A stretch of 22,162 nucleotides of DNA from a virus, in IMG/VR virus record IMGVR_UViG_3300007276_000344, positions 1 through 22,162 of that record. The stretch is one strand, 5' to 3'. The position numbers and the translations under genes are program-made. The stretch's first letter is position 1. Every line of letters begins with the position of its first letter. Of this stretch, positions 1-21,401 are shown piece by piece. A model generated the notes under the pieces. It saw nothing but the letters and a program-made list of their open reading frames with translations. It made no database searches and had not been told where the DNA came from.

Positions 1-666
1 CTTAACTCCATCGTTGTCTGCTTTAATGATTTGGTAAGAAATTGCTTGTCTAATCTTAGACTTCATAGCCACGACTGGGTTATCGAATGACTCGATGAAT
101 ACCTTCGGTGACTTCTTAGCCTTCTGCAAGAGATCGTGCTTAATCTCTGAGGTTGCACGATTAACGTCCATTCCGTAAGCTAACGCAACAGACAGAAGCT
201 CATCAAGCTCTTTATTTCGAAGCATGTTAATTGCATCGTTAACCAAAAAATCTTGACTAATATCTTTCTCCACGTTCTCAACAACGTCAACGAGAAAAAA
301 AGCATTCCCTCCGTTAGCTTTATTGTCAGGATGAACTTCTAAATAGGCCTGAAGGTTTGGCTTGTTTGAAGGAACCAAAAGGTTTCCCATCGTAAATATG
401 ACGGGTGTTTTTACCGAAAACTCACCTTGCTCGTCTTTAAATATAGAGTGTTCGTTCTCGCAATATCGGATCTCTCTAACTCTTTTGGACTCCTCGTCAA
501 ATACTGTAATTCCGCTCTGCATAAGCATAAGCACGGCTTTTGATCGAATGGACTTATAGTGAGCGGGTGCAGAAGTAGAATTTTCTACTCTTCTGATTTT
601 AGGCTTTCTAGGAGATTCCTGATTTTTTTTTGGTCGTCCAGGCGACTTCTTTGTTTGTGTAGGCAT
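1..666 (-). CDS. Hypothetical phage virion-associated protein, 3' end cut off by window edge
   Basis: The reading frame opens with ATG at 666-664 and has no stop down to base 1, so at least 222 residues are present and the C-terminus lies outside the window. The first ~25 residues are Lys/Arg/Pro-rich (MPTQTKKSPGRPKKNQESPR) with a GRPKK core that resembles an AT-hook. The rest is a mixed, soluble-looking sequence with no membrane segment; it includes an acidic stretch (DVVENVEKDISQDF) and a helical part around RNKELDELLSVALAYGMD. The gene follows the putative major capsid gene in the same direction, separated by a strong terminator. Genes just downstream of capsid are often head-completion proteins, but I do not recognise the family and assign no function. 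No Shine-Dalgarno sequence precedes the ATG; the leader is A/T-rich. Confidence 0.8.
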   Translation of the reverse strand, partial: MPTQTKKSPGRPKKNQESPRKPKIRRVENSTSAPAHYKSIRSKAVLMLMQSGITVFDEESKRVREIRYCENEHSIFKDEQGEFSVKTPVIFTMGNLLVPSNKPNLQAYLEVHPDNKANGGNAFFLVDVVENVEKDISQDFLVNDAINMLRNKELDELLSVALAYGMDVNRATSEIKHDLLQKAKKSPKVFIESFDNPVVAMKSKIRQAISYQIIKADNDGVK

Positions 667-4427: not shown

Positions 4428-5090
4428 TTAAATAAATCTATTTTTTAATGCGTTGTAGTTTTGGAGGACTTCTGAGTCGGAAAGCGCTCGATTATACACT
4501 TTAGCAATAGCTAAGTTCCCTCCAAACTCGTCCCCAGCAGCCTGATCGCTACAAGCTAACCTTAAGGAGTTTGTGGAAATAAGCGCCGTGGGAACCGTTC
4601 CACTTACTGTGTTTGTTATTCCGTCACCCAGAATAGTATGAGTAGAACCGTTTCTCCTAGACACAATGTAATGCCAATCGCCTTCTGAAAGCGTAACATA
4701 CCTTCCAAATGGAGACGAAGATTCCCGCACTCCTCCCCCCCAGGAATTTTGATTGTTACTGTTTCTCCCAACCCAAAAACCACTAATGTAATTTTTGTCA
4801 AATATCCTTTCGTATGTATTAATACTTGAGTCTTTTTTAAACCAAGCGCAAGCTGTAAAGTCGCCTAAAGCGTCGTTAAAAGGCGTTAACACTTTATCAT
4901 CAACCCCATCAAACACAATACTTCCCCCATTATCAGAAGAATATGTAGGCCCATTAGTTAAGGTACCGTTATTGCTACCCACTAAGTCTGACCAAGCAGT
5001 CCCAGATCCTGGATAGCTATCACCATTCCCAGCATCTACGTAGAACACCAACCCATCCGTCACTATGCTTTTCCCGTAGCTGTAGCTCAT
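4428..5090 (-). CDS. LamG/concanavalin-like lectin-fold protein, copy 2
   Basis: This 220-residue protein is almost entirely one LamG-type (concanavalin-like jelly-roll) domain. The signature runs DGLVFYVDAGNGDSYPG, WSDLVGSNNGTL, GGSIVFDGVDDKV near residues 13-68, and ends LSDSEVLQNYNALKNRFI. Such domains bind glycans and are common in phage adhesins; here it probably contributes to host-surface recognition. It is a tandem paralogue of the 5087-5758 gene, with near-identical N-terminal ~65 residues and a similar C-terminus but a diverged middle. The ATG overlaps the stop of copy 1 as ATGA, so translation is coupled. There is no signal peptide, as expected for a virion protein made in the host cytoplasm. 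Confidence 0.8.
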   Translation of the reverse strand: MSYSYGKSIVTDGLVFYVDAGNGDSYPGSGTAWSDLVGSNNGTLTNGPTYSSDNGGSIVFDGVDDKVLTPFNDALGDFTACAWFKKDSSINTYERIFDKNYISGFWVGRNSNNQNSWGGGVRESSSPFGRYVTLSEGDWHYIVSRRNGSTHTILGDGITNTVSGTVPTALISTNSLRLACSDQAAGDEFGGNLAIAKVYNRALSDSEVLQNYNALKNRFI

Positions 5091-5758
5091 GCGAATCTGT
5101 TTTTAAGGGCGTTATAGTTCTGAGTGATCTCGGCAGCAGAAAGCTCACGATTATATAAAGAAAAAAGAAAAAACTTTCCTTGAAAACGCCATAGTTGATT
5201 TCCATCCGCCCCTATAGTTGCGTCATCCCATACAATTGTTGATTCAGCTGTAGTAGTTTTGATTAACGTGGTGTTTTGATAAAGATTCCAATCACCCCCT
5301 GATTTTGTAGTTATAGCTAAAAGGTGGGGTGTAGTTTTGTTTAAAGAAGATAAAGAAATACTATCTACTCTTGCATTTCTAAATGTGTCAAAATATGCCA
5401 ATCCATTTGTCCACGGATAGTGTGGACGTTCATTGGACCCGCCAAATCCAAATATTCCAGTTTGCTCAGCACTAGGAGAGTTGCTGTTACAGGCGACCCA
5501 GCAAAGTAGAGTTGCCTCTCCATTAAAATCACTCGTGCTAATGTTAGATACATCTACACGATCATCAACCCCATCAAACACAATACTCCCCCCATTCCCA
5601 CTATCAAACGTAGGCCCATTTGTTAAAGTACCATTATTGCTACCTACTAAATCACTCCACGTAGTCCCGCTACCAGGATACGACTTGCTGTTCCCTGCGT
5701 CTACATAGAATACTAGCCCATCGGTTACGATAGGTGCGTTATTTGCAAACCCACCCAT
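5087..5758 (-). CDS. LamG/concanavalin-like lectin-fold protein, copy 1
   Basis: This 223-residue protein carries one LamG-type jelly-roll domain: DGLVFYVDAGNSKSYPG, WSDLVGSNNGTL, GGSIVFDGVDDRV, then a diverged middle (LLCWVACNSNS...GIFGFGGSNERPHYP), and LSAAEITQNYNALKNRFA at the end. The likely role is glycan binding in a virion adhesin, by family knowledge. Its ATG directly follows the TAA stop of the 84-aa gene (TAAATG), and its own stop overlaps the next lectin start by 4 bases. Comparison with its neighbour shows a shared framework and a changed centre, consistent with duplication and specialisation. Whether it sits on head or tail cannot be told from sequence. Confidence 0.8.
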   Translation of the reverse strand: MGGFANNAPIVTDGLVFYVDAGNSKSYPGSGTTWSDLVGSNNGTLTNGPTFDSGNGGSIVFDGVDDRVDVSNISTSDFNGEATLLCWVACNSNSPSAEQTGIFGFGGSNERPHYPWTNGLAYFDTFRNARVDSISLSSLNKTTPHLLAITTKSGGDWNLYQNTTLIKTTTAESTIVWDDATIGADGNQLWRFQGKFFLFSLYNRELSAAEITQNYNALKNRFA

Positions 5759-10600: not shown

Positions 10601-11969
10601 CCACGTTGCTGCTATCTGACAGATCAGACAGAGTGGGAGCCACAAACGTTACAGCACCTGAGCCGTCGGTCTGCAAGAAAGTGTTTGCTGCGCCGTCTGC
10701 CGTGGGGAGGGTGTAAGCAGACTCAGTAGTGTATGTAGAGCTACCAATAAAAAACTTACCGTCTGGCAAATTAGGAACATCGTTAGCTCTGCCAGCGCCT
10801 AGGACGACGGCAGAAATCTTATTGCCAAAAGTGTTGACTTTAACAATTACCCCAAGGTTCTGAATAGCTGAGGTTCCGCCAGGCTTTGTGGTAACCCAAC
10901 CGCCAGAAGCTCCGAGATAAACCGTTTGACCCTCAGAATAAATAGAGGCGTTAAAAACATCAATGTTATTTATAAAGCCCAAGGCAACAGCCCTTCCCTC
11001 AGCTTCGTTAGCGAGACTTTCATTAAGAATAAGGTGAGCTGGGTAGTTAGTAGTCGCGTCAGCGGCGATTACCTCAACTGTATTTCCAGTAGACCCAGTA
11101 ACATGTAGTGGAGTTCCTTTATCCAAAAGCCCTCCGCTTACGTTCTTAACAGCCTCTGTAATAGTCTGTATGTGCTCGAAAGATATATTTCCAGACCCGT
11201 CGGTCTGTAAGAAAGTGTTAGCAGAACCATCAGTAGCAGGAAGCTTGTATCCCCCAGAATCTGGGCCAATCTGAACGTGCTCAAGAGCCCATGGAGAATC
11301 ATCAGTAGCCTTGATCTCAAAAAGCTTTTCTACACTTGAGTCAGTGGTAGCCCGATAAAAAGTGGTTGTTCCCCCGCCCCCAACAACAACCCTATCTTGA
11401 TTGAAATTTGTGTTAGCGTCGCGGATAGTAAACTTTCTGGAGCTCGTCGCTCCGTCAATATCTACTCTTGCACCATTGCCGCTTAAAATAGCTAAACCAT
11501 TAGGCGAGTACAAAGTTGCGTTTCCACTACCAGAGGAATTCACAGATATCGGAGCGTTTGTAGATGAAGCCGATATAAAGCCTCCGCTCGAATTAGTGAG
11601 TTTTAGAGTTTGAGAGCCTATGTTTACATTATTGATGGCTGATTGCGTCTGAATAATATTCCCATAAGCAGACGTGACCGTGATGTCGCCACCTACGGTT
11701 AAATCACCAGATATGCTAGGACTAGACACTAAAGATATTGTGTAATCAGGCCCAGAGCTTAAGACTATGTTGTCTCCAGCTGTAAGAACTTGATCCGCAG
11801 TGGCCCCAGCTTCAATCCCAGCTAGCTTAGCCCTTTCGCTCGGTGTGATCCTAGCGTCGTTTACAACGACGTTATTCTTCAATGCAGGGTTTACTACAGA
11901 GATAGTATTCGAGTCAGCAGACGGTGCCGATATCGTAATGTTTATCGTGTTGTCGTTGATGTCAGCCAT
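7638..11969 (-). CDS. Large fibre protein with YadA-like head repeats
   Basis: This 1443-residue Thr/Ser/Gly-rich fibre protein is built from modules. The N-terminal half holds ITISAPSADSNTISVV, a KAKLAGIEAGATADQ-type start module, and four repeats of the TDGSGNISF kind. Two SIDDLSDV modules follow, near residues 612 and 780. A VGIGTTTPTEALHVAGN motif sits near residue 835, then a long YadA-like region (~860-1160) of AVGYQAG/AIGYEAG repeats and KLFIENSS plus IYGEFDNDILRVNG. A Gly6 linker lies near residue 1225, and a separate C-terminal domain (~1330-1443) ends YFNPSNDFITLA. Such repeats form trimeric beta-rolls. Fibres with this arrangement often end in a self-cleaving S74 chaperone, which is absent here. 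It probably forms a trimeric receptor-binding fibre. Start and stop both overlap neighbours as TAATG. Confidence 0.85.
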   Translation of the reverse strand: MADINDNTINITISAPSADSNTISVVNPALKNNVVVNDARITPSERAKLAGIEAGATADQVLTAGDNIVLSSGPDYTISLVSSPSISGDLTVGGDITVTSAYGNIIQTQSAINNVNIGSQTLKLTNSSGGFISASSTNAPISVNSSGSGNATLYSPNGLAILSGNGARVDIDGATSSRKFTIRDANTNFNQDRVVVGGGGTTTFYRATTDSSVEKLFEIKATDDSPWALEHVQIGPDSGGYKLPATDGSANTFLQTDGSGNISFEHIQTITEAVKNVSGGLLDKGTPLHVTGSTGNTVEVIAADATTNYPAHLILNESLANEAEGRAVALGFINNIDVFNASIYSEGQTVYLGASGGWVTTKPGGTSAIQNLGVIVKVNTFGNKISAVVLGAGRANDVPNLPDGKFFIGSSTYTTESAYTLPTADGAANTFLQTDGSGAVTFVAPTLSDLSDSSNVVTLDGTQTITGVKIFSSGLVSTNGMIVSGATLSANSGLSVTGTTQLGSTTASSLNVNSINFNPWGSIISTIQGDGSADDLRILSDGNVVVKLDQDNDETNQKFSVVNSADAVRFSVDEDGTVTVNSAFSFPTSDGTTGQVMTTNGSGTLSWSSPVGSIDDLSDVNIIGTPSQGDVLTYNSGSGQWMKSPNLQNLLGIIKSSSGTQVYNTSLDTSAGYVDLQSTSAKMGLGGTFLTASQTSPGVLTFSVATGASGTETQFDAFTLTGTTTTDVADLLLEPGCNFKIEATSGGDAQIRNYPSNTADTTITLPQSSGTLATTADVPTSIDDLSDVDTSTVAPTDGQALVWDNTASKWEPGTVSGGGSSPWTTTGSDIYYNTGNVGIGTTTPTEALHVAGNIKVTGKIATSSTIAIGSNSVGNVAGYYSIHIGHDAGKNDSGGNNVVMGFQAGAFQSKTNRTSIGSKSKAGNYSVAVGHNSSNGSSTDYSVLVGNKTAQYTTGANNVAVGYEAGLGVTGTSTFANTVAVGYQALTALTTGTSNTAVGYQAGAALTAAGSNTFFGYQAGYQSSSAFSTDNTFIGSGAGSSLTTGAYSGIVAVGSGAGNNPNTRSVHIGQNSGFNNNGFGTVNIGFGAGGYGLSGNSVAIGYQANYTSSTANKVGIGYLAQAGANSVAIGYEAGESTGSGNIFIGYQAGDGETGSNKLFIENSSSTTPLIYGEFDNDILRVNGTLQVNDPASTGYAFPTATGTLGQVLEVNASGDLAFATPSGGGGGGLGGADQTLTADRTIDTNGFNLDIELDPTGTADTFTIHDGTHDLFQVDTGTTGVLFSVNDVSGLPKLEVDEDQGVIAKSVKADDGALTAAGQYGKGAEIWYQGTGATQAGSACYLNSSGDWTKTNATNNTNSVGMLAIAAGSDSDVNGMVTRGFVYVSADPGGSVGDVVYLSAATDGLLTTTAPTGTTGFVVRVVGHKVGTNIIYFNPSNDFITLA

Positions 11970-14809
11970 TAGTAAACGCTATAATAAGTGTTCAGGTTAG
12001 AAAGAATGGCTGACCGCTCGGAAGACTTGTCACCGTCAAGCATGATGATCTCCTGTACGTTTCCGCCAAAGGAGTACTGTTGATTACTCCAATTGTTCAG
12101 AATTCTATCACCTCTAAAATCTCCATTTCTGGTGTAACTGAACGTAGAGGTAATACTATTTCTCTGTGCTGTATTAACGTTACTAGAGTCTCTTCTTATA
12201 TTGAATACCATTTGACCCATTTGATACCATCGAAGAGTATTACTTCCATCATCATTAAAGTTTCTAAAGTTGTCAGTCTCTCCGTTGTTTAGCTCGAAAT
12301 TCAATTGATAGTCCTTAAACCAAAGCCTGTTGTCGTTGCCTGTTTGGGTACCGAAAAGCATACCGTGATTGGAGTTGTTAATAGTTTTTTGACATACTGC
12401 AAAAAAATCGAATTCACCAGAAGCAGAAAACTCAGACTCCATGACCATACCTGCGTCAATAGTTTCTATGCATGGCTTACCGTTATCTGTAATGACAGAC
12501 CCAGCAGACACAATCTGCGGCTTTCTGCCTGAGTAGCTCGTGCTGCTTTCCCAGGTGGCATCATTGCCATCTCCAGTAGCGCCGCCTTTTGCCTGGTCAT
12601 ACCACTTAACAAGATACCCGTCGCCGCTTCCACAGTGAGTCAAAAGGGCTGTAGTGTCAAGCTCATAACTAGAGTTAAAGCCAATATCAGCCTCTACATC
12701 GCTGTCGTTTACCACTCGTATTGCTGCCCCTGCGTATGTGTGGTTAAGAAGTCTAAGGCTATAAATTACAGACGTACCTCCAAACCCGTTTGCATCTCCA
12801 CTAAGGAGCCCTGAAGAGCCAAGGTAATTAGAGATGACAATCTTAGTTGAAAGCGGAGGAGTCCCTGTAGCTTGAGTGTTTAAAAGCGCGTCAGCTGACT
12901 GAGATATCGAAGACGCTAAAGAAGTGGAGGCATAAGCTGTACCTACCGTCCAATCAGAAGCCGTGTCTGGATCGGCAAAAGCCTTGTTAGAATAGTAGCT
13001 TGTTCTGGTTAGGGTTTGACCTGAAGCTGGTAACGCACCTATTTGCCTTTGGAACTTCCCCTGACCATCGGCTCGCGCTGTATAGTAATACTCGATGTCT
13101 TCTGTAGCGCCAGTAACTTTAGCCTCAGAATTGGAGTCGTACCTGTCAAAGTAATAGAGCTCAGCGGTTGTTTTAATAGTAGCGTCAACACTTGGAATGA
13201 AGAGGGTTTTTCGGGGTCCGTCTAAATAATCAGCGCTTGGCTTTAAAAGAACCCCGTTGCCTGAACTATGGCCACCAGCAAAGAGTATGCCCTGCTGCGT
13301 ACCTCCTTTAACATTAAAGTAACCGTTAGTAGCGTAAAGATACGAGGCATTAATACCTCCCATGTTGGTCTGACCACCAAGGCTGCTGTTATTTCCCGTA
13401 ATTATCCTTCCAGAGAATGAGGCGCTTGCTGCGCTTATACTATTTGAGTAAATCTTTGGGATGAAAGCTACATCAGAGATAAAAGTACCATCATCTGAAG
13501 GCTCGACAGCTTTAGTATCAAACCTGTAAATCCTGTTGTTCTGATCGCCTACGATAAACGCATAATCAGAATTATTAGCGTTGTAGTATATGTCTTCATA
13601 TGCTGTGTCTGGTTCACCAAGTTCCTGATATCCTATAAAGGTTAACGTGCTCAAATCCCAAGCCGTAGAAAACTCGAACTCCTGTATGTATTCTAAGTGA
13701 TCAACAACGTACATCTTTAATCCGTCATCGCTAATTGTTAACCCCCTAGGCTCAGAGTTTACACTAACATCATCAATCCCATAGTTAGCTACAGATGCAG
13801 ACACTGTTGTCAGATCCCATGCTGTCGTAAGATTATACTCGTGAATAGCATCACCAGAGTTTGTTCCTACATACATCTTTGTCCCGTCTGGCTTAAAGTA
13901 AAGAGAGAGGGGCGAATACCCTCCAGTGTGCCAGGAGTCGTTGTTGTTGTAGAAATTTGTCCATGATGCATCAGAAACATCCCAAGCGGTATCCATGGTT
14001 GCCACGTACACCCTTCTGTTGCCTGAGTCAGCCCAAAAAAACTTACTTCCATCAGGGGATATGTAGCAAGATGAAGGCGTGGGTGAGAGGTATTGATCCT
14101 CTGTAAATGTGGCGGTGCTTGGGTCCCAGGCGGTAGAAAGAGAGTATTCGTTTACGTCGTCAGATCCGCCACCAACGACATACATTTTTGTGCCGTCTGA
14201 CTTAAAATAAAGACCAAGTGGATTGCTCTGGCTCTCGGTATCGGTGTCGTGAAACTTTCCATCAGGAAACCAGTAATTGACTGAACTCAGCTCGGTAAAT
14301 GAAGAGATATCACCTGGCTCCCACTCGCTGTTCGCGTTGTTCCATACCAAAGCCTGACCGTTGGTTGGGGCAGTAGTAGTAGTGTCTACATCGCTAAGGT
14401 CATCAATGCTAGATGTGCTGATGTCTCCTGCTGGACCCTGAATACCCTGAATACCCTGCGGGCCTGTAGCTCCTGTCTCTCCCTGAATACCTTGTGGTCC
14501 TGTAGCTCCTGTAGCTCCTGTAGCTCCTGTAGCTCCTGTAGCTCCTTGCGGCCCTGTAGCTCCTTGCGGAATGGCAAACTCAAATACAGCAGCCGAAGAG
14601 GTGCCAGTGTTTATAACGGTAGCGCCAGTCCCTGCGGATCTTGTTTGTGTTGACGAGCTTACGGAGACAGTTGCTGCATCACCAGCAATCCCTTTGTCTC
14701 CCTTGTCTCCCTTGTCTCCCTTAAGACCCTGAGTTCCTGTCTCTCCTTTGTCCCCTTGGTTCCCTTTAGGGCCTTTAGAGACGGTTACATTGATTCTAGA
14801 TCTAGCCAT
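11969..14809 (-). CDS. Mosaic fibre: collagen-like, propeller repeats, arabinofuranosidase-like domain
   Basis: This protein has 946 residues. Residues 13-44 and 83-129 are Gly-X-Y collagen-like repeats (GDKGDKGDKG; GATGATGATGATG), expected to form a trimeric triple helix. Residues 134-167 are a SIDDLSDVDTTTT module. Residues 197-433 hold four clear propeller-type repeats (LGLYFKSDGTKMYVVG...STAWD) and a fifth weaker one. From about 660 to 946 the pattern IYSLRLLNHTYAGAAIRVV, DIGFN, LVKWYDQA and QEIIMLDG...SAILSNLNTYYSVY resembles the arabinofuranosidase-B-like jelly-roll common in phage adhesins. Catalysis is not shown, so binding is the safer call. The gene sits between the 163-aa protein and the YadA-like fibre, joined to both by TAATG. 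The nine-base DNA repeats in the collagen part may vary in length. Confidence 0.85.
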   Translation of the reverse strand: MARSRINVTVSKGPKGNQGDKGETGTQGLKGDKGDKGDKGIAGDAATVSVSSSTQTRSAGTGATVINTGTSSAAVFEFAIPQGATGPQGATGATGATGATGATGPQGIQGETGATGPQGIQGIQGPAGDISTSSIDDLSDVDTTTTAPTNGQALVWNNANSEWEPGDISSFTELSSVNYWFPDGKFHDTDTESQSNPLGLYFKSDGTKMYVVGGGSDDVNEYSLSTAWDPSTATFTEDQYLSPTPSSCYISPDGSKFFWADSGNRRVYVATMDTAWDVSDASWTNFYNNNDSWHTGGYSPLSLYFKPDGTKMYVGTNSGDAIHEYNLTTAWDLTTVSASVANYGIDDVSVNSEPRGLTISDDGLKMYVVDHLEYIQEFEFSTAWDLSTLTFIGYQELGEPDTAYEDIYYNANNSDYAFIVGDQNNRIYRFDTKAVEPSDDGTFISDVAFIPKIYSNSISAASASFSGRIITGNNSSLGGQTNMGGINASYLYATNGYFNVKGGTQQGILFAGGHSSGNGVLLKPSADYLDGPRKTLFIPSVDATIKTTAELYYFDRYDSNSEAKVTGATEDIEYYYTARADGQGKFQRQIGALPASGQTLTRTSYYSNKAFADPDTASDWTVGTAYASTSLASSISQSADALLNTQATGTPPLSTKIVISNYLGSSGLLSGDANGFGGTSVIYSLRLLNHTYAGAAIRVVNDSDVEADIGFNSSYELDTTALLTHCGSGDGYLVKWYDQAKGGATGDGNDATWESSTSYSGRKPQIVSAGSVITDNGKPCIETIDAGMVMESEFSASGEFDFFAVCQKTINNSNHGMLFGTQTGNDNRLWFKDYQLNFELNNGETDNFRNFNDDGSNTLRWYQMGQMVFNIRRDSSNVNTAQRNSITSTFSYTRNGDFRGDRILNNWSNQQYSFGGNVQEIIMLDGDKSSERSAILSNLNTYYSVY
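14501..14545. repeat. Five perfect copies of a 9-bp repeat coding Gly-Ala-Thr
   Basis: The plus strand reads TGTAGCTCC five times without change, encoding (Gly-Ala-Thr)5 of the collagen-like stalk on the minus strand. Flanking degenerate copies extend the block. Since 9 bp is a multiple of 3, slippage would change stalk length in frame. Confidence 0.9.
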
Positions 14810-15304: not shown

Positions 15305-17743
15305 TTACCCTAATATTTCTGATGTTATATCCCCTGCTTGTTGCTCATCCCCAAGCTCCCCTCTCTCTCCTTGTCTCTGAGAGATGAGTTTGCTTTGCTC
15401 GACAGCTTGCTTCTTAACCCGCTCATCCTTCCTGTCGTCTTTCATTGTTTCGATAGATTCTTTGAAGGAAGTTTCTGATTCAACTTTACTAGAAACAGCT
15501 TGAGCTTTTATCATTTCTATCTCTTTTTTAAAGCCGTGCTTTACTTCTTCTAGCTGAGCTTCTAGCTGAGCCTTAAGTTGCATTTCCTGAGCCTTTAGCT
15601 GAGCCTCCATCTGCATCTCTTGCTGCCTAGCTTCCGCTGCTGCTTGGGTAGACTGCTGTTGTATTTGAGCTTGTTGCTGAGAGTTCTGCATAGCAGCCTG
15701 TTGAGCCTGCGCCATTCTTTTTTTACGTCTTACAACTAGTAAGCGCTCAGCCTGGTTAACGTCTTTTAGTTGCCGAACAGCGATTGCGTCCTCTAGATCT
15801 ATTTCTTTTTGACCTAGAGCTATCTGGATGTTTTGCTCCAAATATTGACGCTCACCTTCCTCCATTTCTTTTACAACACGAACGCCAAAATTATACATGG
15901 CTAAATTCTGGAAAGAGCTAAGCACGCCCATATTTTCCTTGCCTATAGCGTTTTCGTAGATCTTGTAAAGAACTGATTCAGGGTGAATAACTTGAACGCA
16001 CTTCACGATGTCACTACAAACCTTTTTGTAAAGAACCATAGAAGCGTTTGTAATGTCATATATAGCGTTGTTTGCAGCCGCTAAAGCCTGCTGTCTAACA
16101 CCTACCAGAGCATCTGACTTCGGTGAAGAAGCATCCATAACCTCATTGACTCCCGTTGCGTCTCGGATCATCTTGAGGTAGTGGTTATACAAAGTAACAA
16201 GCTCGTTTATATTTCGTATGCTGTTACCAATTTCTCTAATAGGCGGGTTCTGAAAGCCTCCTTCTGGGTTCTTACTTCTGTAATAGAAAACACCCGTCTG
16301 CTCATAAATATCATGCAGCTCTAAAGGCTGTAGCTCACCTCCTTTACCTAGCTGAACGTTCTCTAATCCTTCGATGTCGATGATGATGCCGTCAGGCTTA
16401 GCCTTCGCTACAGCTTGTTGTATCTTCAAGTGGGTGATCTGAAGTTGATCAGCAAACCCAATGCAGCTGTCAACCATAGACTTTGGCATCATGTCTAACA
16501 GATTGGTAGCGCAAACAGAATATGAAAGGTTAGTGCGAGATATATCGTGGATATTCTTAGGGATGTTGTTCTTCTTGCCGTAATCAAATAGGAAGTCCGT
16601 CCCCAGGATGTAGCACCCTCCGTAAACGGAGGCGTTTTCAAGCTTGCTTACCTCCCTGTTAAAAACAGAGCTTTTTGGGGTCTTATAGTTTTCTCCTTTA
16701 GAGTAAAAACCAACGTTCCCGTACTTACTTTCTTTTGATTCGTAGTACTCACAGTCAACAGAAATAAACTCAAAATCAAGGAGTTCAATCATGTATTCAT
16801 CATAACCAAAGTTATTTGTGTTATTGAATCTGTCGTATGAGGATTGACTGAGTTTAGCCGCATCGTACCCGTACTTCTTCTGAGCTTTCTGAGCGATCTC
16901 TTTATACTGCTCTTCAGTGAACTGATCTCCAGCCATTCTTTTAAGCTCTTGAATAGGGACGTGTCTTACATGTCCCGCATAAACCAAGTCGCTAAAATTA
17001 GGATCTTCAGTAAAGCTGTGGATAAAGTGAATAGGATCTATGTAGCTTGTTTTGATTCCGTACTGAGGGTCATTATCTCTTTTGACAACCGCCATCCCAA
17101 GTGCGGTTAAATCTCCTACACATCTTCTTAGGATGTTGTCGTTAAAATCATTCCACTCTAGGGTAAGATTTGTGGCTACCTGAGCTGCTATCTCAGAAGA
17201 AGACTTGATATTATTACCAATAAAAATTTCAGCTTCTTCTAGCGTGTCTGGAATAGAATTAGAATCCATACCTATAATCACTCCAGTTTTTTCCTCTATC
17301 TTCTTTAGTTGGTTTTTTGCGCTAATAACCATCTCTAGCTTTCTTCGATCGGCGTCTTTCTCAGAAGAAGAAAGAGGATCTACAGCTTCTAAATTTGGAT
17401 AAGGGCTTAAAGAGAGGATTTTGTTTGTTACAATTCTTACGAACTTAGGAAGAATAGGGACTGGAGTAAAGTCTATGTTAAGCATACTTCCATCCCCATT
17501 GTTGGGATCTAAAGAGGTAAGAAGGGATCTGTAAATTCCCGTGTCTTGAGTTCCGTTTGCGTACCTACGGTTTCTCTCAAAGGTCTTCTTTCTATTTCCG
17601 TAAATAGAATTTTGTTGATCCGTCTTGCCCCATTGTTGATATATCGATTTAGCATATTTCAACCCGTACTGGTCCCCCTTTTTCTCTTCGGGAGATGCTA
17701 ACGGATCTGGAAAGCCAGCAGATTTTTTGGTGTTACTATACAT
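15305..17743 (-). CDS. Portal protein
   Basis: This 812-residue protein is the portal candidate by position directly after TerL and by sequence. It has IDFTPVPILPKFVRIVTNKI near the N-terminus, DPIHFIHSFTEDPNFSDLVY and VRHVPIQELKRM in the middle, and GVNEVMDASSPKSDALVGVR in the later part, all portal-like. The last ~135 residues are a long Gln/Glu/Lys/Met-rich coiled coil (QQQAQIQQQSTQAAAEARQQ and on), as in large portals of podovirus type. The portal forms the ring at the head vertex through which TerL drives DNA. It is larger than usual for a portal (~500-700 aa). It has its own promoter box and inverted repeat upstream. The ATG at 17743 has no Shine-Dalgarno site. The downstream gene begins 4 bp after its stop. 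Confidence 0.85.
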   Translation of the reverse strand: MYSNTKKSAGFPDPLASPEEKKGDQYGLKYAKSIYQQWGKTDQQNSIYGNRKKTFERNRRYANGTQDTGIYRSLLTSLDPNNGDGSMLNIDFTPVPILPKFVRIVTNKILSLSPYPNLEAVDPLSSSEKDADRRKLEMVISAKNQLKKIEEKTGVIIGMDSNSIPDTLEEAEIFIGNNIKSSSEIAAQVATNLTLEWNDFNDNILRRCVGDLTALGMAVVKRDNDPQYGIKTSYIDPIHFIHSFTEDPNFSDLVYAGHVRHVPIQELKRMAGDQFTEEQYKEIAQKAQKKYGYDAAKLSQSSYDRFNNTNNFGYDEYMIELLDFEFISVDCEYYESKESKYGNVGFYSKGENYKTPKSSVFNREVSKLENASVYGGCYILGTDFLFDYGKKNNIPKNIHDISRTNLSYSVCATNLLDMMPKSMVDSCIGFADQLQITHLKIQQAVAKAKPDGIIIDIEGLENVQLGKGGELQPLELHDIYEQTGVFYYRSKNPEGGFQNPPIREIGNSIRNINELVTLYNHYLKMIRDATGVNEVMDASSPKSDALVGVRQQALAAANNAIYDITNASMVLYKKVCSDIVKCVQVIHPESVLYKIYENAIGKENMGVLSSFQNLAMYNFGVRVVKEMEEGERQYLEQNIQIALGQKEIDLEDAIAVRQLKDVNQAERLLVVRRKKRMAQAQQAAMQNSQQQAQIQQQSTQAAAEARQQEMQMEAQLKAQEMQLKAQLEAQLEEVKHGFKKEIEMIKAQAVSSKVESETSFKESIETMKDDRKDERVKKQAVEQSKLISQRQGERGELGDEQQAGDITSEILG

Positions 17744-17788: not shown

Positions 17789-19936
17789 CTACAAGTGCCA
17801 AGCTTTTGGCTTATGGGTCCTAAAAAATTTCTTGTCGTTGAAGTCTGAAATAACCCTCTCTTTCTTTTTTGTTTTCTGAGCAGCTAAAAGAGCCAAGCCA
17901 GAACTGATGGTTAAGTCAAACTTAGTTCTTTTGTCTATTTTATACCCTATCCAATCCTCTAGCGTTCTGTTGAAAAGCATTTTACCGACCTCACCATCCT
18001 CTGGGTTTATACCAACATGATCATGGATAAAAGCTTCGATAGCGTGAGCGTGAGATTGAATCACGTCTTGAGAGTTTGAGGGGACACCCTTTGTCTTTAC
18101 CGAAACAGAGGAGTTACCAGTTTTTAGGTGCTCTGGGCGGTCCATAAGGTATCCGTCGTAACCACGGGTCTCAAAATACCTGGCTATGCCGTACTTGTTA
18201 TTCTCTATAAGGAGCGGATAACCATAGAAAAAAGCGCACATAAGAACGTCCTCATAAAATATGCTTGCCAGATCTGGCCGAGAAGCGTACTCTACAACGA
18301 ACATATTAGAAGGCACGTCCATGTTGAACTTGTTGTACATATGGAGTGCCCCTTTAGATCCTCTTCCGTCTACTGTGGCGTCAAGATCATAAGAGTCAAC
18401 GCCTCCAACCCCTATGTGTGTATTGGGGGCTACTTTCTTTCCTCTGTCTTCAGATTTATTGTTTCTTAAGTGATCAGGAGGGAGCCAAGCCACCCTAAAT
18501 CTACCATTAGGATCAGGAGAAAACACCACCTCTTCATCTTTAACTCTCCATATAAAATTCCCTTTCACTACAGGGTCAGGGTAAATGCTTTCGTTGTGCT
18601 CTATTTGCTGGTATATCTTACCGATGTTAAACAGACTGCCCTCGATGCTGTCCCTGAAGGCTTCGTCCTCAGTAAAAGGAAACTGCCTAATGATCTCGTT
18701 GAGCTCTGAGGGATCATTCCTGAAGGAGTGACGGTCATTCTTAAGGTATGATTTACTTCCCTGGTCTATAACCTCGCCGTCGATACCTATGACGCCACCA
18801 TGTGTGTGTACGCTTTGGGAAGGATCGTCGATTACTGGGTTTCCATACTTATCGAAAAAACCCTCAAGAGCGTTGTAGGCTGGAATAAAGATTCGATAAA
18901 GTCCAGATCTAGTTCTTCCGTTTTGATTTCTTTCGTTAGGATCAGAGTCATGCCACAACACTCTGTACTCCTCTCCTCCTTTATTCATGGGGTTCACGGT
19001 GCTCCCGACCATCGCTTTCCCTACTACTCGCTTACCGACAATAAGGCAAGTTCTCTCGATCCTCCAAGCTTCTCTGATGTCGCTAGGCTTCTCCCACTTG
19101 CCAGCCTCATCGAGGTACAGCATATGTAGCTTCTCCCCGTCGTATGCGTTATTCGTAGTGTTCTTCCAGTTTATAACTGAGTTGAGGGCATCTCCCAGCT
19201 GAGAAGTTTTATTGTTTTTCGTGATGCGCTTGGAAGGCTCCCGAAAAGCAAGCTCCATTCTCGGATTGGTAGTTCCGTCTTGAATAGGCTTGAAGAAAAA
19301 AGGATAGCTGCGAAATATCGCAACTACTTTCTTCATGAAAATGTTTTCCTGAGCGTCTTTACCTGTCTTTGACTGAATCCCAAGAAGCTTCTCTTTAACT
19401 TGGCTAGCTTCGTCAACAAGGACTGAAGAGCAAATATTAGTGTAGCCAGAACGACGACACTTAGTATAAAGCTGACCGAAACAACGAGGATCAGCTTCGC
19501 ACGCAGCCATGTGGAGAAAGATCTCTTTCTGGAAAGCAAGGTATGATGGATATCCGATATCAATTTTAGACCATTGTAGAAACATATAATGCCTCCCTGT
19601 AATATACGTAGGTTTCCCATTATTGTAAAACCAAACACCGTCGCGCCTACGCTGAAACTCCTGCTCGATGTAAGAATGAAATTTCTTTCGAAACTCGGCA
19701 GGTTTTTCGAGCCACTCATCCATACCTCGAATCCTTTGCAGGTCTTCGGGCATAGGAATGCGCTTCCACACCTGCATCTCTCTTGGGAGGTCATGGAAGA
19801 GAATTTCAGATCGCTTTGGTTTTTTTGGTAAAACAACGAGTAACCCGTGGAGTTCGGTAGCTTCTCCTTCTGTACCGTTAGGGTCGATCTTAATCCCTTT
19901 AGTTTCATACCCTTTTATGTCGATTAAAGTGGACAT
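17789..19936 (-). CDS. terL: Terminase large subunit
   Basis: This 715-residue packaging motor couples ATP hydrolysis to DNA translocation into the head and cuts the concatemer. The ATPase has a deviant Walker A, TKCRRSGYT at 158-166, with Lys159 at the start of the motif instead of the usual Lys before Ser/Thr, as in the lambda gpA motif KSARVGYS. Walker B is LYLDEA (273-278, Asp276, Glu277), and the coupling motif is GST at 311-313. The C-terminal RNase-H-like nuclease shows Asp514 (GGVDSYD), Glu578 (IENNKYG) and Asp674 (FDLTISS). Length is above the usual 450-650. Its ATG overlaps the zinc-ribbon gene's stop by one base (TGATG). The portal follows after a 45-bp gap, and a separate TerS is not certain. 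Confidence 0.93.
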   Translation of the reverse strand: MSTLIDIKGYETKGIKIDPNGTEGEATELHGLLVVLPKKPKRSEILFHDLPREMQVWKRIPMPEDLQRIRGMDEWLEKPAEFRKKFHSYIEQEFQRRRDGVWFYNNGKPTYITGRHYMFLQWSKIDIGYPSYLAFQKEIFLHMAACEADPRCFGQLYTKCRRSGYTNICSSVLVDEASQVKEKLLGIQSKTGKDAQENIFMKKVVAIFRSYPFFFKPIQDGTTNPRMELAFREPSKRITKNNKTSQLGDALNSVINWKNTTNNAYDGEKLHMLYLDEAGKWEKPSDIREAWRIERTCLIVGKRVVGKAMVGSTVNPMNKGGEEYRVLWHDSDPNERNQNGRTRSGLYRIFIPAYNALEGFFDKYGNPVIDDPSQSVHTHGGVIGIDGEVIDQGSKSYLKNDRHSFRNDPSELNEIIRQFPFTEDEAFRDSIEGSLFNIGKIYQQIEHNESIYPDPVVKGNFIWRVKDEEVVFSPDPNGRFRVAWLPPDHLRNNKSEDRGKKVAPNTHIGVGGVDSYDLDATVDGRGSKGALHMYNKFNMDVPSNMFVVEYASRPDLASIFYEDVLMCAFFYGYPLLIENNKYGIARYFETRGYDGYLMDRPEHLKTGNSSVSVKTKGVPSNSQDVIQSHAHAIEAFIHDHVGINPEDGEVGKMLFNRTLEDWIGYKIDKRTKFDLTISSGLALLAAQKTKKKERVISDFNDKKFFRTHKPKAWHL

Positions 19937-20124: not shown

Positions 20125-20142
20125 TTTTTTTAATTTAATTCG

Positions 20143-20216
20143 TACACCCGACAGGACTCGAACCTGTGACCGTCTGCTTAGAAGGCAGATGCTCTATCCA
20201 GCTGAGCTACGGGTGC
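20143..20216 (-). tRNA. trnR-TCT: tRNA-Arg (anticodon TCT)
   Basis: The minus strand folds as a canonical 74-base cloverleaf. The acceptor is GCACCCG with CGGGTGT (one G-U pair), the D stem GCTC/GAGC, the anticodon stem TCTGC/GCAGA with loop CTTCTAA, the variable loop 5 bases, and the T stem ACAGG/CCTGT with loop TTCGAGT. The discriminator is A. The anticodon TCT (20182-20180) reads AGA (and AGG by wobble). CCA is not encoded. The gene sits inside the packaging operon, between the coiled-coil gene and the zinc-ribbon gene, and may serve phage codons that are rarer in the host. Confidence 0.95.
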
Positions 20217-20296: not shown

Positions 20297-20590
20297 CTAC
20301 TTTGAGAATCTTTCTGCGAATCCCCCTGAGTAGTCTTTGTTTTTTTCGATTTCTCCATTTTCGTTTAACTCTTTAACCATTTGTTCTAACCTCTGGCGCT
20401 CCACCAAAAGCTCTTTGCAATCAATAGCTGTTTGCTTTATGGATTGGAGCTCGGCCTTCCTAGAAGAGCCACCAGCCTCAGGGTCAACAGGCTTTTTGAC
20501 CTCTTCGATCATGTTGTCAATAGCAATCTCCATGCTATTCATAAGCCTTTCAGCGGCACCTATCGTGGTAAACTTTTTACTTCTCGACAT
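20297..20590 (-). CDS. Coiled-coil protein, possible small terminase subunit
   Basis: This 97-residue protein is mostly helical and charged, with a coiled-coil-like segment near residues 47-80 (LQSIKQTAIDCKELLVERQ) and a C-terminus ending YSGGFAERFSK. Its start overlaps the end of the GroES-like gene by 14 bases, so it is in the same operon. Small terminases are short helical proteins encoded just upstream of TerL, and no other candidate is present, so TerS is possible. I see no helix-turn-helix, and the call is tentative. A general hypothetical phage protein is the alternative. Confidence 0.55.
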   Translation of the reverse strand: MSRSKKFTTIGAAERLMNSMEIAIDNMIEEVKKPVDPEAGGSSRKAELQSIKQTAIDCKELLVERQRLEQMVKELNENGEIEKNKDYSGGFAERFSK

Positions 20591-21161
20591 ACATTAAGTC
20601 TTCTGCGCGGGTTCTATAGTACTCAGTCCCATCAATGGTGATGCGATAATCCATGTTTTTAGCAAATCCTACTACGTCGCCAACCTTTAACCCTAGTTCT
20701 TCCACCCAAGGCGGCGTAAAAGAGATCTTCCCTTTTGTGACAGGGTTGTCCTTAAGCTTAACAACATCGATAATAGAAGACTGTTGCTCCTCGTCAACCT
20801 CCACTCCTTCGAGAAGAGCCCAGCCCGCCAGCGGATGTATGTCCCCAGTCTTTGCAGACTTGTAAGCAATAGCCTGGTTATTAATGGTATGATTAGGATC
20901 GTACCGTACAAGGTAGCTATTGTCCTCTCCAGTAAGAGGCTGACCATCGTTAATAACAACAAGATGATGGAAATAAAGCGTGTCCCCAACTTCCACTCCT
21001 GTATCGTACTTAAAAGGCGTCGCCACCACGGGGCCTTCTGTGGTTCTGTTTTTGAATTCATTGAATCTATTGTCTATGTAAAGTTCTAAACCGCTGTCGG
21101 TTGTGATCGTGTCGTTGACAAGCTTTTTTAGCTCGACAACAAACAAATCGAATGTTCTCAT
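20577..21161 (-). CDS. Tandem GroES-like co-chaperonin
   Basis: This 194-residue protein has two GroES-like units. Unit 1 (~4-104) has FDLFVVELKK, a mobile-loop-like TITTDSGLELYID, then EGPVVATPF and VEVGDTLYFHHLV, and a YLVRYDPN segment before AIAYK. Unit 2 (~107-194) has DIHPLAGWALLEGVEVD, EEQQSSIIDVVK, KGKISFTPPW and LKVGDVVGFAKNMDYRITID, then GTEYYRTRAEDLMYVEK. The second unit closely parallels GroES endings (VGD..F, IDG.EY..., R.EDIL.V). Normal GroES and T4 Gp31 have one unit (~97-111 aa). It likely replaces or works with host GroES on GroEL to fold capsid protein. The start is close behind the 78-aa gene. Whether seven or fewer copies form the lid is unknown. Confidence 0.75.
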   Translation of the reverse strand: MRTFDLFVVELKKLVNDTITTDSGLELYIDNRFNEFKNRTTEGPVVATPFKYDTGVEVGDTLYFHHLVVINDGQPLTGEDNSYLVRYDPNHTINNQAIAYKSAKTGDIHPLAGWALLEGVEVDEEQQSSIIDVVKLKDNPVTKGKISFTPPWVEELGLKVGDVVGFAKNMDYRITIDGTEYYRTRAEDLMYVEK

Positions 21162-21164
21162 TAA

Positions 21165-21401
21165 TTAAAAATTTAAGTCAAATTCAAGCATGCAGGGCAT
21201 CTCGTCGATGGACTTCCAAAGGAGCGTGCCCTCATCGTTTTCAATATACACAAGGTATCGCTTTTTACCAAATTTGTGAAGGTGATGATCATCTTCCAGT
21301 ATAGCGGAAACCTCTCCTCTACCAGCCTTCATGCCTACATAATAAGCCATGCCGTCTTTAGGCTCCTTGCCTACTACGATTTTTCTAATAAGTCCTTCCA
21401 T
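21165..21401 (-). CDS. Hypothetical small protein
   Basis: This 78-residue protein opens MEGLIRKIVVGKEPKDGMAY and reads YYVGMKAGRGEVSAILEDDH in the middle, ending SIDEMPCMLEFDLNF. It looks like a compact alpha/beta or beta protein of a family seen in other phages, but I know no function. It starts 1 base after the stop of the 98-aa gene and ends 3 bases before the GroES-like gene, so all three are co-transcribed. Confidence 0.65.
   Translation of the reverse strand: MEGLIRKIVVGKEPKDGMAYYVGMKAGRGEVSAILEDDHHLHKFGKKRYLVYIENDEGTLLWKSIDEMPCMLEFDLNF

Follow-up and report, generated by a model that had tools for sequence, protein, structure and literature searches.

The locus examined here raises the question of whether a single phage gene encodes two GroES domains in one chain and, if so, what kind of chaperonin lid such a protein would build. 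The window, by which we mean the whole stretch of DNA that was analysed, is the entire IMG/VR virus record of 22,162 bases. In this study, we believed, with a probability of about 80%, that the gene encodes a Cpn20-type tandem GroES co-chaperonin of a podovirus-like Bacteroidota phage.

The open reading frame claimed by a sequence-only reading of the window is present on the minus strand as an intact frame of 194 codons (Table 1), and the plus-strand reading of the same interval is not open, with many stops. All the segments quoted in that reading were found in the translation, namely GLEL (24–27), VEVGDTLYF (56–64), IHPLAGWALLEG (108–119), SIID (129–132), and LKVGDVVGF (158–166). Among 44 relatives, G59 and D60 are invariant, and G161 and D162 are at least 90% conserved. 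The predicted structure places the domain boundary at approximately residues 102–107, between the last strand of the first domain (96–101) and the first strand of the second (108–110), close to the split at 104/105 that had been claimed. The earlier mobile-loop assignments in both halves also agree with the profile alignments: SGLEL of the N half is in register with GGIVL of GroES, and the loop of the C domain lies around QSSIIDVV, where the pLDDT of the predicted model is low at 131–136. Judged as sequence, both halves carry a mobile loop with a hydrophobic tripeptide, a putative GroEL-binding element.

Table 1. Features of the tandem co-chaperonin gene and its neighbours in the window
Feature	Position	Strand	Details
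Tandem GroES (Cpn10–Cpn10) co-chaperonin ORF	20577..21161	minus	194 aa, ATG start, phrog_13932
N-terminal GroES domain (predicted)	20844..21161	minus	residues 1–106; mobile-loop segment SGLEL 23–27, VGD turn 58–60
C-terminal GroES domain (predicted)	20580..20843	minus	residues 107–194; first strand IHPLAGWALLE, VGD turn 160–162
Terminase large subunit, downstream of tandem	17789..19936	minus	phrog_6681, E 6.7e-210
Portal protein	15305..17743	minus	phrog_6547, E 2.8e-191
Small conserved gene directly upstream of tandem	21165..21401	minus	78 aa, MEGLIRKIVVGKEPKDGMAYY...; homologues at the same place in relatives

The profile phrog_13932, labelled 'co-chaperonin GroES', matched the protein over its full length (E 3.4e-47; residues 1–193 on profile positions 1–199 of 200). 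On the whole protein, Pfam Cpn10 (PF00166) matched residues 108–190 (E 1.5e-4; 22.2 bits vs a cutoff of 21.1), and the C half in isolation reached 19.5 bits. When the 44 relatives were scanned singly, 35 were matched by Pfam Cpn10 at E ≤ 0.01, and it was found in the N half of none. Because Pfam Cpn10 sees the C half alone, a plain domain search would return a single GroES domain and leave the N half unexplained. The single-domain phage GroES family phrog_3188 matched the C half of the window protein (E 8.1e-8) and likewise fell on the C half of the phi38:1 homologue, and it matched the N half of the homologues from an Ekhidna MAG (L207, 14–76; E 3.4e-5) and from Elemovirus (L165, 14–64; E 3e-4). 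For HHalign, the reference alignment held 15 single-domain GroES sequences (E. coli GroES and 14 from viral contigs or phages), and 100 column-shuffled versions served as the control. The N-half profile scored 33.8 over 45 columns (shuffle maximum 23.1) in an alignment that brought its mobile-loop segment and VGD turn into register, and the C-half profile scored 64.9 (shuffle maximum 15.9). Compared with each other, the two half profiles were weakly alike (21.8 over 28 columns; shuffle maximum 17.4). A recent simple duplication of one domain is unsupported, since the N and C profiles align over just 28 columns.

The whole-chain AF2 model had a pLDDT of 79.2 and a pTM of 0.77. Its best PDB match was the Chlamydomonas tandem Cpn20 subunit 7ekq_R, the sole match under 1e-3 by Foldseek (E 5e-5); by VIA, the Z score was 10.8 (model 1..194 on chain 11..194), and the packing of the domains was compared over 172 residues at 4.1 Å from one predicted monomer. 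T4 gp31 was also listed among the PDB matches, and the phi18:3 'chaperonin cpn10' was the best match in the viral library. The C half matched 1wnr_G with a VIA Z of 8.5. Folded alone, the N half had a pLDDT of 80.6, and its 13 best VIA rows were all Cpn10/GroES, gp31, or Cpn20 (Z 5.6–7.5, with 1wnr_G at 7.5), followed by GroES-like dehydrogenases at Z ≤ 4.7; the top three by Foldseek were M. tuberculosis Cpn10, H. thermophilus GroES, and T4 gp31. As every one of these N-half scores is below 8, a single row is unconvincing; what convinces is that all the rows agree and that a gap separates them from the next fold. In the models, both halves are predicted to adopt the Cpn10 β-barrel fold, and the whole chain and the isolated N half give two GroES domains rather than one domain with an unrelated half. 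The roof hairpin of GroES is absent from both halves, with gaps of eight (N) and seven (C) columns against the GroES profile. The claim of two GroES domains fused in tandem was thus borne out by structure prediction, profile comparison, and the relatives, and it was not borne out by Pfam, which recognises the C half and misses an N half that phrog_3188 (in relatives) and HHalign detect. On Pfam alone, one of the grounds for refutation named in the sequence-only reading, a profile match confined to one half, would have applied.

A first scan found 105 viral contigs with a match, and a second found at least 528. From loci of the window's group we collected 80 distinct intact proteins, all of 194–201 aa; these intact ORFs, together with homologues in sequenced isolates, rule out a frameshift or a misassembled fusion. 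The median dN/dS in this group was 0.12 for the N half and 0.16 for the C half, values that indicate purifying selection on both. Distant homologues, with 19–27% identity in a shared alignment, occur in the Cellulophaga phage phi18:3 and its kin, Elemovirus, the Maribacter phage Panino, and the Manatee Spring phage MW202828 (UOF82516.1). The phi38:1 protein gp089 matches phrog_13932 at E 1.8e-82, and a scan started from the Panino protein found no relatives among viral contigs. The hosts named in the records of relatives, and three MAGs with a match, are Bacteroidota. The tandem is a conserved gene of a large phage family infecting marine Bacteroidota, and computation shows its architecture, its conservation, its synteny, and the presence of single GroES and GroEL beside it in relatives.

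The gene order is also conserved. The tandem lies upstream of the terminase and portal genes in Baltivirus, Callevirus, Elemovirus, and others, directly or closely upstream of the terminase in relatives, and the order that recurs in distant phages is a gene of 75–80 aa, the tandem, terminase, and portal. Homologues of the 78-aa gene are likewise placed in Elemovirus, Panino, MW202828, and two MAG contigs, and a similar 80-aa ORF is found in phi38:1; R6, K7, I8, M18, Y20, I34, W62, K63, and E73 are invariant in eight sequences. This gene had no match in Pfam or PHROG, and its product is possibly a functional partner of the lid.

Other features of the window were recorded alongside. A 97-aa ORF (20297–20590, minus) shares 14 bases with the end of the tandem ORF and lies ahead of the terminase; proteins of 94–99 aa occupy its place in MW202828 and phi18:3, and it is a candidate for the small terminase subunit. 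Between the tandem gene cluster and the terminase lies a tRNA-Arg (anticodon TCT; 20142–20216, minus). A tail-type protein of 946 aa (11969–14809, minus) starts with a collagen-like Gly-X-Y stretch. Two adjacent paralogues of approximately 220 aa (4428–5090 and 5087–5758, minus), reading GLVFYVDAGN...SYPGSGT.WSDLVGSNNGTLTNGP..., apparently arose by tandem gene duplication and are possibly lectin-like. Outside the window, crAss001, from a related phage group, encodes a single-domain counterpart of the tandem: gp15 (L225, 1874–2284), a GroES of 136 aa that is extended at its C-terminus and lies a few genes before the terminase.

Five relatives represented by isolates or complete genomes were checked (phi18:3, phi38:1, Panino, Elemovirus, and MW202828), and each had a separate single Cpn10; a GroEL was present in four of them, with phi18:3 as the exception. 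In Elemovirus (L189, 9234–11047), the single groES is paired with groEL on the opposite strand, at a distance of several kb from the tandem. The idea of the tandem as a mere substitute for a missing GroES is unsupported in the relatives, where the single GroES is kept. In the window's own group, no phage GroEL was found on 12 contigs of 42–68 kb, which are perhaps fragments, and no single GroES was found on these perhaps incomplete contigs with the phage GroES profile to E 1. The Ekhidna MAG that holds a tandem homologue has its own groES–groEL pair, and the window's group presumably uses the GroEL and GroES of the host. In Elemovirus, Panino, and MW202828, the second domain has a shortened loop region; hence GroEL binding may not extend to every domain, and the two domains are perhaps non-equivalent.

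The fit of an even-domained co-chaperonin to a seven-fold chaperonin is the known puzzle of plastid Cpn20. In a GroES ring, the C-terminus of a subunit adjoins the N-terminus of its neighbour, so the short linker of the phage protein, between the strands at 96–101 and 108–110, would suit two domains sitting as ring neighbours. For GroEL binding, ring stoichiometry, function, and substrate, we infer that the following is most likely. The tandem would cap a GroEL ring, that of the host in the window's group and that of the phage in several relatives. Pairs of domains cannot total seven, and the simplest lid would therefore combine, in one mixed ring, three tandem chains with a single-domain GroES supplied by either host or phage. 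The single GroES beside the tandem in relatives suggests such mixed seven-domain rings, as in chloroplasts; as none was found on the 12 contigs of the window's group, mixing there would require host GroES. Chloroplast Cpn20 and Cpn10 form functional hetero-oligomers of seven domains, as reported for Chlamydomonas CPN20/CPN23 with a single-domain subunit (PMC5780408). We put the chance of the mixed ring of three tandems and one single GroES slightly short of even.

A homo-oligomeric lid without a single-domain partner appears unlikely, although it is the best of the alternatives, and it is most plausible in the window's group. Three or four tandem chains, with six or eight domains, would cap GroEL asymmetrically, so that either a GroEL subunit stays free or a lid domain is left out. 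Such a lid would agree with the 12 contigs of the window's group, on which no single-domain GroES was seen, and Cpn20 homo-oligomers can be functional too: in E. coli, apicoplast Cpn20 takes the place of GroES, and concatamers of six and of eight domains are functional (PMC5780408). However, single Cpn10 accompanies the tandem in each of the five relatives checked, host GroES should be at hand, as in the Ekhidna MAG, and the lids native to plastids are regarded as mixtures with seven domains (PMC5780408). The sequence-only reading had held that a two-domain lid would change the symmetry of the GroEL–lid complex; an altered symmetry is plausible, but the co-occurring single GroES points instead to rings that restore seven.

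We considered it still less probable, and quite improbable overall, that the GroES fold has been co-opted for packaging or head assembly, or for capping or inhibiting a different ring such as ClpP, and does not act as a folding lid. The fixed place beside terminase and portal, which in Elemovirus is away from the groES–groEL pair, would fit such a role, as would the reduced second loop of some relatives and the fact that the best structural match, Cpn20 in 7ekq, was solved in complex with ClpP. However, no Cpn20 chain other than 7ekq_R ranked among the PDB matches, and the link to ClpP may thus simply mirror which structures exist; moreover, the window's group keeps the mobile-loop and VGD features, and mass spectrometry did not mark the phi18:3 homologue, gp096, as structural. 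That the C half alone is GroES and the N half an unrelated beta-rich domain is hardly credible, since the Pfam match to the C half alone, which favours it, is opposed by the fold of the N half, its profile–profile score, and the phrog_3188 matches in relatives.

Under the folding-lid reading, virion or packaging proteins most likely fold beneath the tandem; a virion protein is named as the putative substrate because of the gene order and the T4 precedent. As neither domain has the roof hairpin, the dome should be more open, like that of T4 gp31. By analogy, the folding cage may be enlarged, as the earlier reading had supposed, given that the hairpin is missing in both halves as in gp31. In gp31, the roof loops are absent, the chamber is approximately 8% larger, and the dome is open (PMC6318259).

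The sequence-only reading was right to name chloroplast Cpn20 as the known tandem GroES, and the phage version proved widespread. Similar to chloroplast and apicoplast Cpn20, the phage protein has two Cpn10 domains head to tail in approximately 190 residues, and in relatives it co-exists with a single-domain Cpn10. Unlike Cpn20, it is phage-encoded with no plastid lineage, shares 15–17% identity with it in structural alignments, and has no roof hairpin in either half. The two are probably independent fusions, with no sign of common tandem ancestry, and the phage tandem is classed as working like Cpn20 and not as Cpn20 by descent. With T4 gp31 it shares a phage-encoded co-chaperonin fold without the roof hairpin and a presumed role in virion-protein folding; unlike gp31, which is a single domain and forms homo-heptamers, the tandem cannot build a homo-heptamer of domains. 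Each half has the barrel fold (predicted), mobile loop, and VGDxxxF turn of GroES/Cpn10 (PF00166), but the chain differs from that family in its two domains, its missing roof hairpin, and an N half diverged past Pfam detection.

Phage GroES, gp31, and plastid Cpn20 are already known, and the family is already labelled 'co-chaperonin GroES' by PHROGs, as are many members by GenBank. The phrog_13932 proteins and the phi18:3 'chaperonin cpn10' belong to the same family over the full length and occupy the same place before terminase and portal, but their labels do not state the tandem nature. The homologues of phi38:1 and MW202828 are annotated 'hypothetical protein', and no description of a tandem phage GroES was found in the open literature searched, with subscription papers outside its scope. 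Annotations would be corrected accordingly, as several homologues are called hypothetical and others plain GroES, with the tandem unstated.

Tentatively, and with slightly less confidence than for the ring composition itself, we suggest that Bacteroidota phages evolved, independently of chloroplasts, a mixed GroEL lid of three tandems and one single GroES, whose unequal loops and open roof would fit large virion proteins, and that some bring their own GroEL. With another tandem, apparently of independent origin, in Cellulophaga phi18:3 and phi38:1 and in Elemovirus, all of them small phages that can be cultured, the Cpn20 puzzle becomes testable; these genomes also encode single GroES and, in many cases, GroEL, which makes for a simple test system. 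It also raises the question of whether selection favours tandem lids when the substrates are difficult ones, for example capsid proteins.
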